Below are positions 8,602-25,940 of a DNA stretch of 64,000 bases, one piece after another. The stretch's first letter is position 1. Every line of letters begins with the position of its first letter. Origin of the DNA: Malachius bipustulatus (taxonomy: Eukaryota > Arthropoda > Insecta > Coleoptera > Melyridae); the NCBI GenBank assembly GCA_910589415.1, contig OU342639.1:20096268-20160267 (forward strand). The letters run 5' to 3'. The position numbers were made by a program, and so were the translations under genes. The notes beneath the pieces were generated by a model that searched no databases, was not told where the DNA came from, and saw only the letters and a list, made by a program, of their open reading frames with translations.

Positions 8602-8689
8602 TGTGTTTTTCGAACCGACAACTGACACGCGCGAGCACAAAGAGTGTTCTGACCGCCGATCCTCGCTGCTGTGAAATCTTCTATTAGTT

Positions 8690-9400
8690 CAATTTGTGCG
8701 CACGCGTAACACAAAGCAGTGATACTACGTAGTGTTCTATGTATTTGGAAAAGATTTTTATACTACCTAGTGTAATGAAGTGCTGTAGACCTTTATCTAT
8801 ATCGCTGGGATATTTGATTCGTAGTCGAAGGTCAATAGCCTCATTAACGTAGAACCGAAATTTGTTCCAATCAGTATTTTTTGATGTTAGCTTTGGTGGA
8901 GGTGATTTACTGATAATGGTAGTACTCATGCTAAGAATAACCGGGCTGTGGTCGGAAGTGAGGACAAAACAGCTGTCGACTGCAATAGTTATAACGAAAT
9001 CAAGCAGATCTGGAGTCTTTGTGGGGTCCGTAGGCCAGTATGTGGGTTTTCCATTAGTAAGGAAATCCAGGTTGATGTCGGACATGGCACGAAGAAAGTT
9101 TCGACCTTTTGTGGTGACGAGTCTTGAATCCCAGTGTGTATGTTTGGCGTTCCAATCTCCTGATACATCTGCCACTGAGGCTTTGGAAGAAGTCTTTGTG
9201 CTCATTATATGATATAGTGTGCCATTGATGGACTATAATATATGGCGGTAGCTTGGATCTTCCATGGTGATTGGTGATGCATCTACTTCGATGATTGTTA
9301 CTTGTATTTTGTTTGTCCGGAAATGTGGTAGTTCGTGATGGGATATGGCTGAGCGAACGATTATTGCTTCAACAAAAGATCTTCTGCGAATCTATACGTT
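8690..9400 (-). pseudogene. Jockey-like LINE endonuclease fragment
   Basis: The minus-strand frame at 9205-8684 contains GDWNAKHTHWDSRLVTTKGR, then PTYWPTDPTKTPDLLDFVIT and LTSDHSPVILSM. These are the GDFNAKH, DLLDF and SDHxPV catalytic and substrate motifs of the APE-type endonuclease of Jockey-group non-LTR retrotransposons. Upstream frames (9400-9210) carry RSAISHHELPHFRTNKIQ-like sequence with frameshifts. The RT that should follow is missing: the frame dissolves at about 8690, next to the DIRS-like promoter region. It is a dead fragment. Confidence 0.85.
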
Positions 9401-9846: not shown

Positions 9847-12671
9847 TTATATATATATATATTTCTCCAAAATCGCGAAATTTCGATTTTCAAAACGCTC
9901 CTGTAGCTTTATCTTTCAAGATTAGTGAACGAAATTTTGGATTCTTGTAAAGCTGAGGAATGACTTTAGATTTTCGTTGAAAAAATTTCCAAAAGTCACG
10001 TTACTTCTACAGGGTGTCCCTTCAAAGTTCCACATATCCGGTTTTTGTCATCTCATTTCAGGTCGCAGTTTTGAATCTAGGAGGCTGAAATTTTTGTGGG
10101 AGTAAGATATCCACAAGGAGTGGTCTGGTATTGCACTTGAGCAAAATCGGCCGAGCCGTTTCAAAATGGCGGCTATTTTAATTTTTTGGAAAATTGACTA
10201 TTTTTGAATCCCGGTATGAGCAAGATGGCAAAAAAACTTTGAAATAAAATTAACAGGATTTGAAGAAAATTATTGGAAATTTGAGTTAATGCAATAAAAT
10301 TAGCATATTTTCCATTAATAAGCCAGTGTCGTGGGTAGGAAAAAGGGTGAAAATGTGTCAATTCTATAACCGTTTATGAGTCCATTTTTGAAGAAGTTGA
10401 ACCGAAATTTTCAATTTTTTTTTTGCTTTAACATATAATTTGATGTCTTAGCTTCAATTCGCCTCGATTAATGTAGCACTTTAAACGAAAAACAAAAAAG
10501 TTTTTCGCTTGTGCAAAATTAGCTTGCACTTATTAAATCGATGAAATGGTTCGCAATTTCTTTTTTATTTTTTTCCACATTCAATTATGAATGGTTCTGA
10601 AAATTAGAAGAGCAAACGCAACAACAATTAAATCACCTACATGCAGGTGAAAAAAGTATTCAAATTGGTTTTTTAATAACAAAGATACGACCAGTTTAAA
10701 AGTGAGGTGTGGGTACCTGACGTACTACATAATTATATCTACCCGATCATCGCTACAACCTTGAAACTCACCTTGGCGAAGTTAGTTAGGCAAGGGTCCT
10801 AGAAAACTGTTGGTGCTGGTTCGAAACCACGAGAGGGTCATTCTTTTTTTTTTTTTGGTAGGTAGGTGATTTTCCCCCAAAAAAAATCGGATTATTTTTC
10901 CATTATATTCATTATAAAAAAAAATAGGAAGAAAATATTTATTATTTTTACATGATGTTTATTTCTCTAAAATTTTAAAAATGCTCCTGTAGGTTAATTT
11001 TTCAAGATCAATGAACGAAATTTTTTACTTTTGTGAAACTTAGGGATGACGTTTGATTAAAAAAAAAAAACATTTTTCTAAAATTGTCTCTCCAAATTTC
11101 AAAAAAAAAAAACGGGTATGAGGCACGGTTTCTGGTCGCAGTTTTCAATCCTGGAGGCTGAAATTTTTTTGGTAGTAAGATAACTGCAAGTAGTCGTCTG
11201 GTACTGCATTTGAGTTAAATCAGAAGAGCCGTTCCAAAATGGCGGCCTTTTCAATTTTAGGAAAAATTGATGGATTTTGAACCCCTAATAAATAAGCCAG
11301 TTAGAAAAAGTCTTTTAAACGAAATTAACATTATTGGAAGAAAATTATTTGAAATTTGAGTTATAAAATATTGAGTTAAAATATTGCAATAAAATTTGCA
11401 ATATTTTTATTATTAAAGCCAGTGACGTGGGTAGGAAAAAAAATTTCTGTAACCGGTTATGAACATATTTTTGAAGGAATTGAACGAAAATTTTTCCACT
11501 AGACAACTATATTCTAATAACCCTTAACTATGAAAAATTTCAAGAAGCAAATAAGAAAAATGGCGGAGATATTAGAATATTTTTACATAGCTTGTAATTT
11601 GTTTCAAATTTCAAGATAGTGTAAAAAAATTGCATTTTTAAATTAAAAAATATATTATATAATAAACATTATTTACACTCCAAAACTTAGTTTGCACTCA
11701 TTACACTATTTTACTTTTGTGAAACTTAGGGATGACGTTTGATTTTCACAAAAAAACATATACCTAAAATTGCGCTACTTTTACAACATGTCTCTCCAAA
11801 TTTCAAAAAAAAACAAAAAAAACGGGTATGAGGCACGGTTTCTGGTCGCTGTTTTCAATCTAGGGGGCTGAAATTTTTTTGGTAGTAAGATAACTGCAAG
11901 TAGTCGTATGGTACTGCATTTGAGTTAAATCAGAAGAGCCGTTCCAAAATGGCGGCCTTTTCAATTTTAGGAAAAATTGATAGATTTTGAACCTCTAAAT
12001 AAGCCAGTTAGAAACAAAAACTTTTAAACGAAATTAACATTACTGGAAGAAAATTATTTGAAGTTTGAGTTATAAAATATTGAGTTAAAATATTGCAATA
12101 AAATTTGCAATATTTTTATTATTAAGCCAGTGGCGTGGGTAGGAAAAGGGAAAAAGGGCTAAATTTCTATAACTGTTTATGAACATATTTTTGAAGGAAT
12201 TGAACGAAAATTTTTCCAGTAGACAACTATACTAATAAACTTCAAAATTCAAAGATTTCAAGAAGGAAATAATAAAAATGGCGGAGATATTAGAATATTT
12301 TTACATATTATGTTTATTCCTCTAAAATTTAAAATTTTCGGTTTTCAAAGCTCCCCTTTCACTTTTTCCGTTCTATAAAAGGTAGTCTAAAAAAAAGTAT
12401 TTTTTAAGTAAAGTTAGCCAGTGGCGGGCATAGGAAATGGGCCAAAATTGTTCAATTTTGCCAATGATTTTTTTTGTTTTGTTAAATTTAAAAATTCATT
12501 CTAAGGCATGCACGGTTTAAAACGAAATGAAATGCAATTGTCAGTAAGCCACTACGCGAATATCACCTGACTATGTAAAATTTCAGAAAGCCAATTTAAC
12601 AAGCGGTGAAAATCAGAATTGAATCGCATAAAAATACACTATTTCTGCGATTGATGCGCAAGAAGGTTTTT
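9649..12671 (+). repeat. Hairpin-ended repeat with internal tandem units (copy 1)
   Basis: The left end has a 12-bp-stem hairpin (AGTGTATTTTTT, 9651-9662 with 9666-9677). A conserved segment ending CCTGCCCACGA and a (TA)n tract (9784-9862) follow. Then come three to four diverged units of about 0.6-0.7 kb, each with ATGGCGGC..TTTTCAATTTT, GCCAGTG.CGTGGGTAGGAAA and TTATGAACATATTTTTGAA. The right end has a hairpin (AATCGCA 12622-12628 with TGCGATT 12646-12652) followed by GATGCGCAAGAAGGTTTT. Copy 2 is inverted at 23111-26960 with fewer internal units; a decayed copy 3 lies at 27588-28260. No coding capacity is apparent. TAGTGTATTTTT occurs, inverted, at both ends. Class uncertain: long MITE or Helitron-like. 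Confidence 0.75.
9784..9862. repeat. (TA)n microsatellite
   Basis: Almost pure TA dinucleotide with a few TTTATA interruptions. It is an internal part of the surrounding repeat, since copy 2 has the corresponding tract at 24742-24778. Confidence 0.95.
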
Positions 12672-19000: not shown

Positions 19001-20934
19001 TAAAGTGGAGAAGATACAATTTCCCTGTGCCACTAACTCAATTACCTTTACTTGTTCAATCTAAATAGAAATCAGAGACTCTTCAGCATTGAGCTTATAA
19101 AACATCTCTTTAGATAAGAAAAAATATTCCAGACGAACAAATCAAGGCAATTTTTCCATTTGAACTTTGTTCGATCCATTCCGAACTTATACTTGAAAAC
19201 ACCTTAAGACTCGAAGGTTTCAGAAAATCTCTCCTTAAGTCACAAAATTATGCCACTTCACGTAAATAAAAAATACCTCACCGAGTGAAAACTTCAAAGC
19301 AACATCCTTTCAGTAATGAAATTCGACCTAATATCAGCACCAACTCCTGAAATAAATTATTCACCCGTACAAGATACAAGAACGAAAGATAATGGACATC
19401 CTTGAATTTTTGGAGATGAATTTCCAACAAAAAAATAAAACTGCCAGTAAAAACTGGAGGAAGTGAACTTGCTAGCTACTAGTAGACTAAAGCACGCATA
19501 GATTAATACCCTTTCCTGTCATTTATCACGATTTTGTCATCGTGCTAGTATATGCAAAACCTCGTAGATAGCATTCAGCTACGTCAGCAGGACATCAGGT
19601 CGGAGGGAAAATCTTCCCAACTTAAATAAACGACCTGGAAGCTCTGATAATCACAATTACTATCAAGATGTGGGAATCGTTAAATCGCTTGATAAAATGC
19701 CAAGGGAATAATCTTATGTAGAAGTTTGAGCTATGAAATATTTTATTTTCACTAACACTATGGCAATTGGCTTTCCTTAGTGTCGGAAAAATGGATATTT
19801 ACAGTTTGGATCGCATATAAAAATCTTGCAATAAAAATATCAGCTTACTCGCAGAATCTGAGGAAAATTGTAACAAAAAACATTAGCGGTATCCTTTACA
19901 ATCTTTAAAATATCAGATAAATATCATGCAAAATACACATGGATCTAAAAAAAAGCATATATTCTAACCAAACAGAAACTTCATATTTAGATAACTTCTA
20001 TGGATTGTGCAGTTGTTCTCTTTTATTTTTGGTTTGTTTCCCATTTCAACAACTATTTCGTATCCGATTTCATATTCGCAACACTTTGGGAAACTCGATG
20101 TATGCAGTATTGACAGCAATAGTCTAACTAATAAAATGAAATAAAGCAGTTTCATGAATATTATACAGGCTGTCCCACAAGTCTCGGATAAACTCTTATG
20201 TACGTTGTTGACGGGTCATCAAATTCAGGCAAATTCACACCTTGGCATAGTCTCCCAAACATAGCAGAGACAATCCTTCTATCGGGAAGCTTCGTTTGTT
20301 GTGAGTTATTATCAAGAGACTCCTTAATTTTAAACAGTACAATATATTGGATCGGCCCCTGTGCCTTTTCACCGAACATTCACCTCAAGTGGGATATCAA
20401 AGCTCCTCGACTATTCAGAACCACGCCTGATATGTCTCAGTTTCATATTTTTTTCGGATATCTAACTTTAACGATCCGTCTTCGCCTTGTGATCCTTTTC
20501 CTCGTATCTCTTCACGTGTCATCTTCGTTTCCAATTTTTTCAAGCCTATTGACAATGAGATCCTGTGATTTACTTAGAGCAGTTAAATCTGTCAATTTAG
20601 CAATATATTTATGATGTCCATCAATGGCAGTCTAATGAGTAGACAAAAGGCTTCTAAAGTCATTATAGGATTTCTAAATTGACCAGAGATTATCTTATCC
20701 TATGGAAGTCTAATAAGTTTAATTTCCTCAAGTAACATCTTGAATTAAGACAGGCTGCTTGAAATACCTTTACTGGAGTCCACCCTTAGTTCCTGAATCA
20801 GTAACTATTCTGATGCTTTTCATTTTTGAAGTGTAACTGGAACACGTGTACTTTTCACAGCGCTTCTCCAGGTATTTAACATGTTTGGTTAGTCTTTATA
20901 AAACTGCAACGAACATTATTCTTGCGTTAAAAAC
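16093..20934. other. Long stretch without recognised genes
   Basis: AT-rich, mostly single-copy-looking DNA. A (CA)n microsatellite lies at about 17460-17484. A small perfect inverted repeat CACATAGAT/ATCTATGTG lies near 17042-17073. A lone transposon-end-like TATACAGGCTGTCCCACAAG lies at 20161-20180; beyond it, frames at 20161-20614 stay open on both strands but match nothing I know. No splice-supported exon was identified. Confidence 0.45.
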
Positions 20935-20946: not shown

Positions 20947-21022
20947 ACAAAGACAAAAGATGAATGACATGTTGTCAGACAACATGCCATCCATTAATGT
21001 TGTGCTGTGAGCAGAGGCGGAA

Positions 21023-21067
21023 ATTGTAGACACGTGTTTCGTCCTGTTTGGGACTCTTCAGTACAAT
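21023..21067 (-). ncRNA. Type I hammerhead ribozyme, copy 1
   Basis: Sense strand minus. Stem I is ATTGTA (21067-21062) with TACAAT (21028-21023). CTGAAGA supplies the C3-A9 core, stem II is GTCC/GGAC closed by CAAACA, and GAA supplies G12-A14. Stem III is the tiny ACAC/GTGT. Predicted self-cleavage is after C17 of the GUC triplet, between 21029 and 21028. All conserved core residues are present; position 7 is A, which is permitted. Confidence 0.92.
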
Positions 21068-21342
21068 GTATCTACCAACACACAGCACAGTTTAGATCAC
21101 GGATCCCGTGAGCAGAATGCATTGAAATAAAAATAAAAATAAAATAAAAAGGCACGGTGGGTTAGGCTTGCGCCATAGGATACACCCCAGACAGCCATAA
21201 TGCATGCCAAAAATGAGTGCAGTGCCTCCCGGTGTGCATGAAGTAGGTAAAGCCCCTACTAGGCGTTGCTAGACAAAAGATGAATGACATGTTGTCAGAC
21301 AACATGCCATCCATTAATGTTGTGCTGTGAGCAGAGGCGGAA

Positions 21343-21387
21343 ATTGTAGACACGTGTTTCGTCCTGTTTGGGACTCTTCAGTACAAT
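21343..21387 (-). ncRNA. Type I hammerhead ribozyme, copy 2
   Basis: Identical in sequence to copy 1 and exactly 320 bp away. Predicted cleavage falls between 21349 and 21348 on the minus strand. Cleavage here and at copy 1 would release one 320-nt monomer. Confidence 0.92.
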
Positions 21388-21662
21388 GTATCTACCAACA
21401 CACAGCACAGTTTAGATCACGGATCCCGTGAGCAGAATGCATTGAAATAAAAATAAAAATAAAATAAAAAGGCACGGTGGGTTAGGCTTGCGCCATAGGA
21501 TACACCCCAGACAGCCATAATGCATGCCAAAAATGAGTGCAGTGCCTCCCGGTGTGCATGAAGTAGGTAAAGCCCCTACTAGGCGTTGCTAGACAAAAGA
21601 TGAATGACATGTTGTCAGACAACATGCCATCCATTAATGTTGTGCTGTGAGCAGAGGCGGAA

Positions 21663-21707
21663 ATTGTAGACACGTGTTTCGTCCTGTTTGGGACTCTTCA
21701 GTACAAT
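21663..21707 (-). ncRNA. Type I hammerhead ribozyme, copy 3
   Basis: Identical core and stems. Predicted cleavage falls between 21669 and 21668 on the minus strand. Confidence 0.92.
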
Positions 21708-21982
21708 GTATCTACCAACACACAGCACAGTTTAGATCACGGATCCCGTGAGCAGAATGCATTGAAATAAAAATAAAAATAAAATAAAAAGGCACGGTGG
21801 GTTAGGCTTGCGCCATAGGATACACCCCAGACAGCCATAATGCATGCCAAAAATGAGTGCAGTGCCTCCCGGTGTGCATGAAGTAGGTAAAGCCCCTACT
21901 AGGCGTTGCTAGACAAAAGATGAATGACATGTTGTCAGACAACATGCCATCCATTAATGTTGTGCTGTGAGCAGAGGCGGAA

Positions 21983-22027
21983 ATTGTAGACACGTGTTTC
22001 GTCCTGTTTGGGACTCTTCAGTACAAT
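21983..22027 (-). ncRNA. Type I hammerhead ribozyme, copy 4 (first in the left block)
   Basis: Identical core and stems, predicted cut between 21989 and 21988. This is the most upstream ribozyme of the minus-sense block, about 26 nt inside the block's 5' end. Confidence 0.92.
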
Positions 22028-22053
22028 GTATCTACCAACACACAGCACAGTTT

Positions 22054-22084
22054 TCTAATCAGTTTAGATCCGTGATCTAAACTG
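22054..22084. repeat. Head-to-head junction with 11-bp hairpin
   Basis: The left block's unit homology stops at 22053 and the right block's starts at 22067. The junction includes CAGTTTAGATC and, after a 3-nt loop (CGT), its exact complement GATCTAAACTG (22060-22084). It marks the inversion axis between the two divergent arrays. Confidence 0.8.
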
Positions 22085-22104
22085 TGCTGTGTGTTGGTAG
22101 ATAC

Positions 22105-22149
22105 ATTGTACTGAAGAGTCCCAAACAGGACGAAACACGTGTCTACAAT
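22105..22149 (+). ncRNA. Type I hammerhead ribozyme, copy 5 (plus block)
   Basis: ATTGTA (22105-22110) pairs with TACAAT (22144-22149). CTGAAGA is at 22111-22117, stem II at 22118-22121 and 22128-22131, GAA at 22132-22134, and stem III at 22135-22142. Cleavage is predicted between C22143 and T22144. The core is very close to the well-known schistosome hammerhead (CTGATGAGTCC...GGACGAAAC). Confidence 0.93.
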
Positions 22150-22424
22150 TTCCGCCTCTGCTCACAGCACAACATTAATGGATGGCATGTTGTCTGACAA
22201 CATGTCATTCATCTTTTGTCTAGCAACGCCTAGTAGGGGCTTTACCTACTTCATGCACACCGGGAGGCACTGCACTCATTTTTGGCATGCATTATGGCTG
22301 TCTGGGGTGTATCCTATGGCGCAAGCCTAACCCACCGTGCCTTTTTATTTTATTTTTATTTTTATTTCAATGCATTCTGCTCACGGGATCCGTGATCTAA
22401 ACTGTGCTGTGTGTTGGTAGATAC

Positions 22425-22469
22425 ATTGTACTGAAGAGTCCCAAACAGGACGAAACACGTGTCTACAAT
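22425..22469 (+). ncRNA. Type I hammerhead ribozyme, copy 6
   Basis: Exact copy of copy 5, 320 bp downstream. Predicted cut between 22463 and 22464, releasing a 320-nt plus-sense monomer. Confidence 0.93.
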
Positions 22470-22689
22470 TTCCGCCTCTGCTCACAGCACAACATTAATG
22501 GATGGCATGTTGTCTGACAACATGTCATTCATCTTTTGTCTAGCAACGCCTAGTAGGGGCTTTACCTACTTCATGCACACCGGGAGGCACTGCACTCATT
22601 TTTGGCATGCATTATGGCTGTCTGGGGTGTATCCTATGGCGCAAGCCTAACCCACCGTGCCTTTTTATTTTATTTTTATTTTTATTTCA

Positions 22690-22701
22690 ATATAATTCTA
22701 A
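22690..22701. repeat. Right target-site duplication of the hammerhead array
   Basis: ATATAATTCTAA directly after the T-rich end of the plus-sense block. It matches 20935-20946. Confidence 0.8.
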
Positions 22702-23110
22702 GTTGGTTGCCAGATATCTTAAGAGTATATTTCTGACAAATCAATTGTATCAAGAGCGATGGGTATATATTTACTTCTGATCATAAAATACAAAATAGTT
22801 GTGAAACATCACAACTGGGCCAAAAACGTGAAACGATTGTTTTCAATGGTGGCTCCATCGACCACCATTGTTCAACATACAAATTTTGCTATACATATTT
22901 GTTTTACAGTGCTTCAAGATCCTTGAATTATGAGGCTCCCAATTATTTTACCTAATACGTGGAAAAGTGTCTAAGAAAGTAGACATATTAGTACATGCTT
23001 GGAAAAAAAGTGAACAGAAAGAAGCCGACTTCAAGATAAAGGCGTGGGTAGGAGAGAACTTACAGGAAGCTGAGAAGTAGTGGTTAGCAAAAGCTGAAGT
23101 GTTAATATTT
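22702..23110. other. No feature recognised
   Basis: AT-rich single-copy-looking DNA between the hammerhead array and the inverted hairpin-ended repeat. It contains GGTGGCTCCATCGACCACC, a small imperfect hairpin near 22848-22866. Confidence 0.4.
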
Positions 23111-24775: not shown

Positions 24776-25940
24776 ATATGTTATAGGCAATGTATATAAT
24801 CCGGTATTGTATATAATACCTTGTCATTGTATACATTGCCTAAAACGTCCAGGCAATGTGTGAAATACGATTTATTTCATAGATTGCCTAGGTATTGTAT
24901 AGAATACCAGAAGCGCATCAGGCAATGTGTATAATGAACGACAGCTGGCAGCGAAACGTGCACCCTACTACTAAGGGCTAAACTTAATTTGCCCTCCAAT
25001 AATTCATATTCGTATGTATAGGTATAAGGTAGTCAAGTTTATTTATTTTTTTCGTTAAATAAGTAGGTAGGCACCAGTTATTACAACAGGTATTTATAGG
25101 TATGTACTTCCATTGCCTACGCAGTTAGATACGTGAATAATGCTTTCCTGATTGTTGATATCATTATCTAAAGGGACAGTCAAAGTAAATGACCTGACCT
25201 GACCTGACCTAACCTGACCAATTTGTAAAACATGTATAACTACTTAATTGTTTAAAAACTCTATTTCATACATTGCCCATGGTTCAACGGGCATTCTATA
25301 CAATGCCTAGGTATTGTATATGTTATAGGCAATGTGTATACTGCAGGGATTCCATACAATACCTTGGCAATGTATACAATTCCGGGATCGTTCAGGCAAT
25401 GTATGAAATGATTTTAATTTCTCAAACTATTTCATACTTTACCTAGGTAATGTATACAATGCCTAGGCATTGTATAGAATGCCCGTTGAACCTTGGGCAA
25501 TGTATGAAATAGAGTTTTTAAACAATTAAGTAGGTATACACGTTTTACAAATTGGTCAGGTCAGGTCAGGTCAGGTCATTTACTTTGACTGTCCCTTTAG
25601 CCCTTAAGTAGTAGGGTGCACGTTTCGCTGCCCGTTGTCGTTCATTATACACATTGCCTAATGCGCTTCTGGTATTCTATACAATACCTAGGCAATGTAT
25701 GAAATAAATCGTATTCCACACATTGCCTGGACGTTTTAGGCAATGTATACAATGACTAGGTATTATATACAATACCGGATTATTTACATTGCCTATAACA
25801 TATACATTACATAGGTAAAGTAAGAAATAGTTTAAGAAATTAAAATGATTTCATACATTGCCTGAACGATCCCGGTATTCTATACATTGCCTAGGTATTG
25901 TATAGAATCCCTGCACTATACACATTGCCTATAACATATA
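24776..25940. repeat. Complex palindrome built on ATACATTGCCTAGG motifs
   Basis: Three segments and their inverted copies occur in the order A-spacer-B-C-B'-A'-C'. A (about 24779-24975) pairs with A' (25599-25803). B (25169-25312) pairs with B' (25462-25598). C (25313-25446) pairs with C' (25803-25940). The ends read TATGTTATAGGCAATGT. About twenty copies of GGCAATGTATA or its complement punctuate it, many forming local palindromes such as CATTGCCTAGG.ATTGTAT. No ORF is supported. It lies in the TA tract of the larger repeat. Confidence 0.8.
25190..25224. repeat. (CCTGA)n pentamer tract
   Basis: ACCTGACCTGACCTGACCTA followed by ACCTGACC. The mirrored copy is at about 25557-25578 as (GGTCA)n, and both lie within palindrome arms B/B'. 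The unit is a permutation of TCAGG with one TTAGG-type variant. Confidence 0.85.

Follow-up and report, generated by a model that had tools for sequence, protein, structure and literature searches.

A hammerhead retrozyme with two inverted arms and its probable copying by a Penelope-type reverse transcriptase

Six hammerhead ribozymes in a window of 64,000 nucleotides from Malachius bipustulatus make up one insertion of a non-coding element, rather than a satellite block, and this element is a metazoan-type (non-LTR) retrozyme. Its two tandem arrays run in opposite directions between the copies of a target site duplication. Probably, a Penelope-type reverse transcriptase (RT) copies the retrozyme RNA, which we predict to be circular, starting from each of the two 3′ ends that a staggered break leaves.

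An insertion of two inverted arms

Scanning the window against Rfam with cmscan returned six matches to RF00163, the type I hammerhead, all with the same score and E value (58.7 bits, gathering threshold 34; E = 7.5e-13; Table 1). An earlier note on this DNA had named six such ribozymes, and each of them was recovered at precisely its stated coordinates; the architecture that it had described also held, with a complete core and a stem II of GUCC and GGAC. Reading along the window, four minus-strand hammerheads are followed by two plus-strand ones; the blocks are thus mutually inverted, a point on which the note was silent. Tandem Repeats Finder (TRF) gave a period of 320 bp in both arrays, as had been claimed for the spacing within the blocks, with 100% matches in each. 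Not one difference separates the four full units (three minus, one plus), in keeping with the earlier description. Recent amplification, which had been read from this identity, is consistent with the zero differences.

A single insertion, flanked by a target site duplication, has the two blocks as its opposite arms; this is the informative feature, and it had previously been missed. The inverted arrays, their outward RNA 3′ ends, the perfect 12-bp direct repeats that flank the whole and the lack of coding together identify a single non-coding insertion. Its longest stop-free stretch is 71 codons, which bears out the reported absence of a protein-coding component. The target site reads AAC-N12-GTT, and the four extra bases beside the left duplication are possibly a stutter where copying began. 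Folded as RNA (RNAfold), the whole unit reaches −95.8 kcal/mol (z = −2.87), a value matched by 0 of 100 shuffles. In the predicted fold, the position at which the left array stops (site A) lies about 10 nt past a 16-bp hairpin; site A and the corresponding position of the right array (site B) are single-stranded and flank a stem-loop domain.

Stem III of the hammerhead is short. The palindrome ACACGUGU provides 2 bp and a tetraloop in the monomer, or 8 bp between two ribozymes. By computed energy, the hammerhead fold of the monomer reaches −3.9 kcal/mol and the best alternative fold of the monomer −6.0, compared with −22.9 for the two-strand fold. Short stems III with a tetraloop are described for invertebrate hammerheads, and action as a dimer for amphibian ones, in passages of PMC7229834.

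Metazoan retrozymes are a known kind of element with insects among their named hosts. In the portion of PMC7229834 used here, the non-LTR retrozymes have type I hammerheads, non-coding tandem units of 150–450 bp, a GC content below 50%, self-paired RNA and, when duplications are present, duplications of more than 4 bp. The window element fits this description, as the earlier note had proposed: six RF00163 hammerheads, a non-coding 320-bp unit with 44.7% GC, self-paired RNA, a 12-bp duplication and dispersed copies.

Elsewhere in the window, positions 8684–9229 (minus strand) hold a jockey-like LINE endonuclease fragment (PF14529, E = 3.7e-9), which is the main hint within the window sequence of an insect or other arthropod host. 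Positions 25168–25600 form an inverted repeat with 47-nt arms that are 98% complementary, (TGACC)n / (GGTCA)n pentamers and further nested inverted repeats, possibly an inverted-repeat DNA element. A tandem duplication of ~710 bp, with copies 78–96% identical, lies at 11023–12335.

Table 1. Features of the retrozyme insertion, in window coordinates
Feature	Position	Strand	Evidence and remarks
Left target site duplication, 12 bp, ATATAATTCTAA	20935..20946		Repeat search and sequence; preceded by AAC (20932–20934)
Four extra bases, ACAA, between duplication and left array	20947..20950		Sequence
Left array, 3.4 × 320 bp	20951..22053	−	TRF and phase mapping; RNA-sense 3′ end outward (left), stops at unit position 117–118 (site A)
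Type I hammerhead	21023..21067	−	RF00163, 58.7 bits; predicted cleavage after GUC, between 21029 and 21028
Type I hammerhead	21343..21387	−	RF00163, 58.7 bits
Type I hammerhead	21663..21707	−	RF00163, 58.7 bits
Type I hammerhead	21983..22027	−	RF00163, 58.7 bits
13-base filler between arms	22054..22066		Sequence
Right array, 2.0 units	22067..22691	+	TRF and phase mapping; RNA-sense 3′ end outward (right), stops at about 265–267 (site B)
Type I hammerhead	22105..22149	+	RF00163, 58.7 bits; cut predicted between 22143 and 22144; unit numbering starts at 22105
Predicted 16-bp hairpin, unit positions 74–108, just before site A (118)	22178..22212	+	RNAfold of the unit; one example
Type I hammerhead	22425..22469	+	RF00163, 58.7 bits
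Right target site duplication, ATATAATTCTAA	22690..22701		Overlaps the array end by its first 2 bases; GTT comes next (22702–22704)

Arms, ends and targets across the genome

The genome searched comprises 544 Mb in 52 contigs. A hammerhead search scored the best 74 of 73,468 loose candidates, most of the 74 on contig C1, and a DNA search with the 320-bp unit gave at least 276 matches in the best 40 of 1,163 candidate regions. We analysed 61 copies: the window insertion, 56 hammerhead-match loci and four large loci chosen from the DNA search because both orientations were present. Two arms were found in 28 copies and a single arm in 33. All 28 two-arm copies are (−)(+), with RNA 3′ ends outward, and none is (+)(−); excluding the four loci picked for orientation leaves 24 two-arm copies out of 57, every one of them (−)(+).

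The outer ends fall largely at two places in the unit, site A at position 118 (within 6) and site B at position 265 (within 8), 147 nt apart. One arm ends at A and the other at B in 22 of the 28 two-arm copies, compared with 11.8 expected, a number reached in 0 of 20,000 permutations; among the C1 copies alone the pairing holds in 14 of 18. One copy (L038) is B/B, none is A/A and five have another end. Single-arm copies end at A in 19 of 33 cases, at B in 5 and elsewhere in 9. Of the 22 A arms, 14 are longer than one unit, as are 9 of the 22 B arms. The comparison of the 61 copies shows a uniform mode of insertion.

Duplications of at least 10 bp flank 34 of the 61 copies, compared with 2 of 400 mismatched flank pairs. 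Of these 34 copies, 23 are among the 28 with two arms and 11 among the 33 with one; 31 of the 61 copies have duplications of 12–14 bp. The duplicated sequence has a GC content of 18%, compared with 36% for the loci. A strict motif, RRC-N12-GYY, occurs at 11 of 34 targets and 33 of 3,400 control places, and the half-strict form C-N12/13-G at 19 of 34 targets, 15 lacking it, compared with 683 of 12,200 control places (5.6%). The 14 targets of exactly 12 bp have 28 edges, of which 22 show G after the cut and all 28 show C or T as third base. The target is nearly fixed in its spacing and reads similarly on the two strands. A flank palindrome within each individual target is weakly supported, as 52 of 2,000 shuffled pairings reach it.

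Sequence variation between units bears on the template. Full units differ by a mean of 0.89 changes within an arm, 0.44 between opposite arms of one insertion and 5.2 between insertions. In the seven insertions with full units in both arms, the between-arm means were 0 for the window, L066 and L068, 0.22 for L065, 0.53 for L052, 0.89 for L067 and 2.67 for L064, the last exceeding the distance of 2 between L064 and L009. Private variants of L052 and of L068 are present in both arms of each; the haplotype of L066 is that of L009; and L065 and L066, with arms of up to about ten units, each carry one haplotype. The units of L051 are mixed. This pattern fits the copying of both arms of an insertion from one template, and arms longer than one unit, together with the similarity between arms, are in keeping with repeated copying round a small circle. 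The minus arm of L067 carries one variant in units 3 and 7 only, a hint of a multimeric template or of later exchange.

At the 28 inner junctions, where the two arms meet, 11 have letters common to both arms, 2 are blunt and 15 contain 1–24 bases of filler. The inner phases lie within 30 nt of each other in 12 of 28 copies, compared with 5.3 expected, so the inner ends are not fully independent; the other 16 are more than 30 nt out of phase. The junctions resemble products of end joining in which similar positions are somewhat favoured, perhaps through pairing of the two ends at palindromes of the unit.

Penelope-like elements and the route of insertion

A search of the genome for GIY-YIG domains gave 775 candidates, of which the best 150 were scored. 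Among the scored matches are many open frames of 823–855 amino acids, in tandem arrays and in minus–plus pairs, and RVT_1 and GIY-YIG domains were found in an 820-aa frame from locus L103 and a 604-aa part in L074. These are Penelope-like elements (PLEs). The short contig C11 is a large head-to-head PLE array, with GIY-YIG matches every 3.3 kb from 3382 to 82839, six minus and then plus, mostly in 833-aa frames.

We examined 15 minus–plus PLE pairs and resolved both outer ends in 13 (excluding C14:42474894 and C1:48214266). As the pairs were selected for (−)(+) matches, their orientation carries no evidential weight. In all 13, one end is short and the other, the ‘tail’ end, lies about 30–42 nt further. 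Family labels were assigned from GIY-YIG scores and end sequences, without a tree, and ‘fam8’ has the end sequence of ‘fam1’. All 3 pairs of the 823-aa family carry 13-bp duplications together with C-N12/13-G; the other ten resolved pairs sit, as judged by eye, in AT-rich simple repeats. Of five further 823-aa-family loci, L099 has a plausible G(T/C)C at 12 nt and L098 lacks it, L100 and L102 end outside the stretch taken, and L101 continues into the next unit. By eye, L075 has a minimal hammerhead 56 nt before the short site, which cmscan did not report; nor did cmscan report a hammerhead in any of the nine PLE-search loci. At the inverted junctions of L075, L076 and L077, Rfam plant miRNA families score in cmscan, apparently only on account of the long perfect hairpins.

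The retrozyme matches the layout of these PLE insertions in its head-to-head arms, two different outer ends and short duplication, and it has the target motif and duplication length in common with the 823-aa family. Its A and B ends thus correspond in layout to the short and tail ends of PLEs, with a longer interval. With no stop-free stretch beyond 71 codons, the retrozyme has no RT or GIY-YIG frame of its own. Local alignment with four PLE ends detected no common sequence above shuffles, so the case for a partnership is one of layout and target rather than of homology. Published PLEs are similar: passages of PMC3846280 describe rotifer elements with inverted pLTRs, 8–10-bp duplications and a 31-bp tail optionally at one inverted pLTR. 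The purified anole protein, PAc, for which a dimer is predicted, cuts and extends both DNA strands with a preference for AT-rich targets, and its copying begins at two internal sites; in vitro, copying did not require hammerhead cleavage (PMC11167929). PLEs co-occur with metazoan retrozymes and have been proposed as their helpers, ‘a strong candidate’ in the wording of one section of PMC7229834.

The arms, ends, duplications, motif, shared haplotypes and PLEs of the same layout were all observed in this genome, and PLE machinery is the simplest account of all these regularities. In the route that we infer, tandem copies would be transcribed, hammerheads would cut the transcript into 320-nt monomers and a host ligase would close the monomers into circles, as part of PMC7229834 reports for retrozyme monomers of other animals. 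A symmetric, probably dimeric GIY-YIG endonuclease would cut the two strands about 12 nt apart at C-N12-G with an AT-rich middle. Both 3′ ends would then serve as primers on a single RNA, with copying begun at 118 from one end and at 265 from the other, and the polymerase would pass more than once round the predicted circle. Joining of the two copies end to end, through short homologies or filler, would leave inverted arrays with outward 3′ ends between 12–14-bp duplications. The most likely source of the enzyme is the PLE family of this genome with the 823-aa ORF. Counting against this route are the lack of sequence common to retrozyme and PLE ends, the longer interval between the start sites, the absence of hammerheads from the cmscan results for the PLE loci, the 15 of 34 targets that lack the motif, the weak flank palindrome, the 6 of 28 two-arm copies that do not pair A with B, the 33 of 61 copies with a single arm, the divergent arms of L064, the variant in two units of L067 and the closeness in phase of many inner ends.

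Mobilisation by a LINE with an APE-type endonuclease, in which the inverted arms would be ordinary twin priming as in human L1, is unlikely. Twin priming does yield inverted arms and target duplications from two primed ends, and the window contains a jockey-like endonuclease fragment. It affects a minority of L1 copies, however, with a second start that is not fixed, no circle-derived tandem units and a different endonuclease. No second fixed start site is expected of it, yet 22 of 28 copies pair A with B; the nearly fixed spacing and similar strands of the target do not resemble the work of an enzyme that nicks one strand and places its second nick variably; and the PLEs of the same genome display the whole pattern. 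An origin at the DNA level, as an inverted-repeat DNA transposon or as a satellite rearranged by inversion and unequal exchange, is scarcely credible. The long perfect inverted repeats speak for it, but the two outer ends differ in sequence and hence form no terminal inverted repeats, and the dispersed copies each have their own duplication and arms that stop at two fixed places. Barring coincidence, the end positions and duplications lead us to reject both the transposon and the satellite reading.

Fold-back self-priming, suggested for rotifer PLEs in part of PMC3846280, in which a single cDNA folds and is copied into a palindrome, is highly improbable here. The excess of inner ends that are close in phase speaks for it, but a folded copy has to finish at the start of the first arm, which predicts A/A or B/B ends, of which 28 copies furnish none and one, respectively, and most of the inner junctions are out of phase. 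The end pairs refute it as a general route, and individual copies, for example L038 with its B/B ends, could have arisen in this way. Another rival reading concerns the template: the same machinery might copy a linear multimeric transcript of an existing array instead of a closed circle, a version that we regard as possible but doubtful. Existing arrays are homogeneous, so identical units would also be expected from them; the variant in units 3 and 7 of L067 and the mixed units of L051 agree with such a template, as does the independence of PLE copying in vitro from hammerhead cleavage (PMC11167929). Against a linear template stand the arms of about ten units with a single haplotype in L065 and L066, and the abundance of circular retrozyme RNA in three other animals in the text of PMC7229834 consulted. 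We retain the RNA circle, copied from both ends of the break by a Penelope-type RT, as the probable route.

Known systems and meaning for PLE biology

The portion cited here of the paper that defined animal retrozymes (Cervera and de la Pena 2020, PMC7229834) does not settle their mode of integration or the source of the enzyme, and it describes no inverted outward arms, two fixed start sites, 12–14-bp duplication or target motif for metazoan retrozymes. A search of open-licence papers, taken without supplements, turned up no account of retrozymes with outward arms, paired start sites or a target motif. Plant LTR retrozymes (PMC4918200), as described in PMC7229834, are likewise non-autonomous hammerhead elements with a circular RNA intermediate, but they have type III hammerheads, LTRs, 4-bp duplications and a Gypsy-type helper. 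The likeness to PLEs, as given in PMC11167929 and in part of PMC3846280, extends to head-to-head inverted repeats, a tail at one end only, short duplications and AT-rich targets. Also in common are a hammerhead that precedes the points where copying starts, the presence of two such points and, on the proposed route, a break whose strands are both cut and extended. The retrozyme differs from PLEs in lacking an RT or endonuclease, in the 147 nt between its start sites and in having no detectable sequence in common with the PLE ends compared.

This genome places many near-intact retrozyme insertions beside PLE families with open frames. It thereby offers falsifiable signatures: outward arms, two start positions, 12–14-bp duplications and a C-N12-G target common to one PLE family. 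The same signatures are relevant to how the head-to-head layout of PLE copies, with its one-sided tail, arises. In 2013, head-to-head PLE copies were explained by self-priming on antisense RNA (PMC3846280, in part); the layout fits better with extension of both DNA ends, as seen in vitro (PMC11167929). We lean slightly towards a broader proposal, that animal retrozymes are the SINEs of PLEs: a naked RNA circle would present two start sites, set about a stem-loop, to a PLE dimer, which would make a symmetric 12-nt staggered break and prime both DNA ends on that one RNA, and double-ended priming would be the general route of PLE integration. If this is true, double-ended priming would explain both the one-sided tail and the head-to-head repeats of PLEs.
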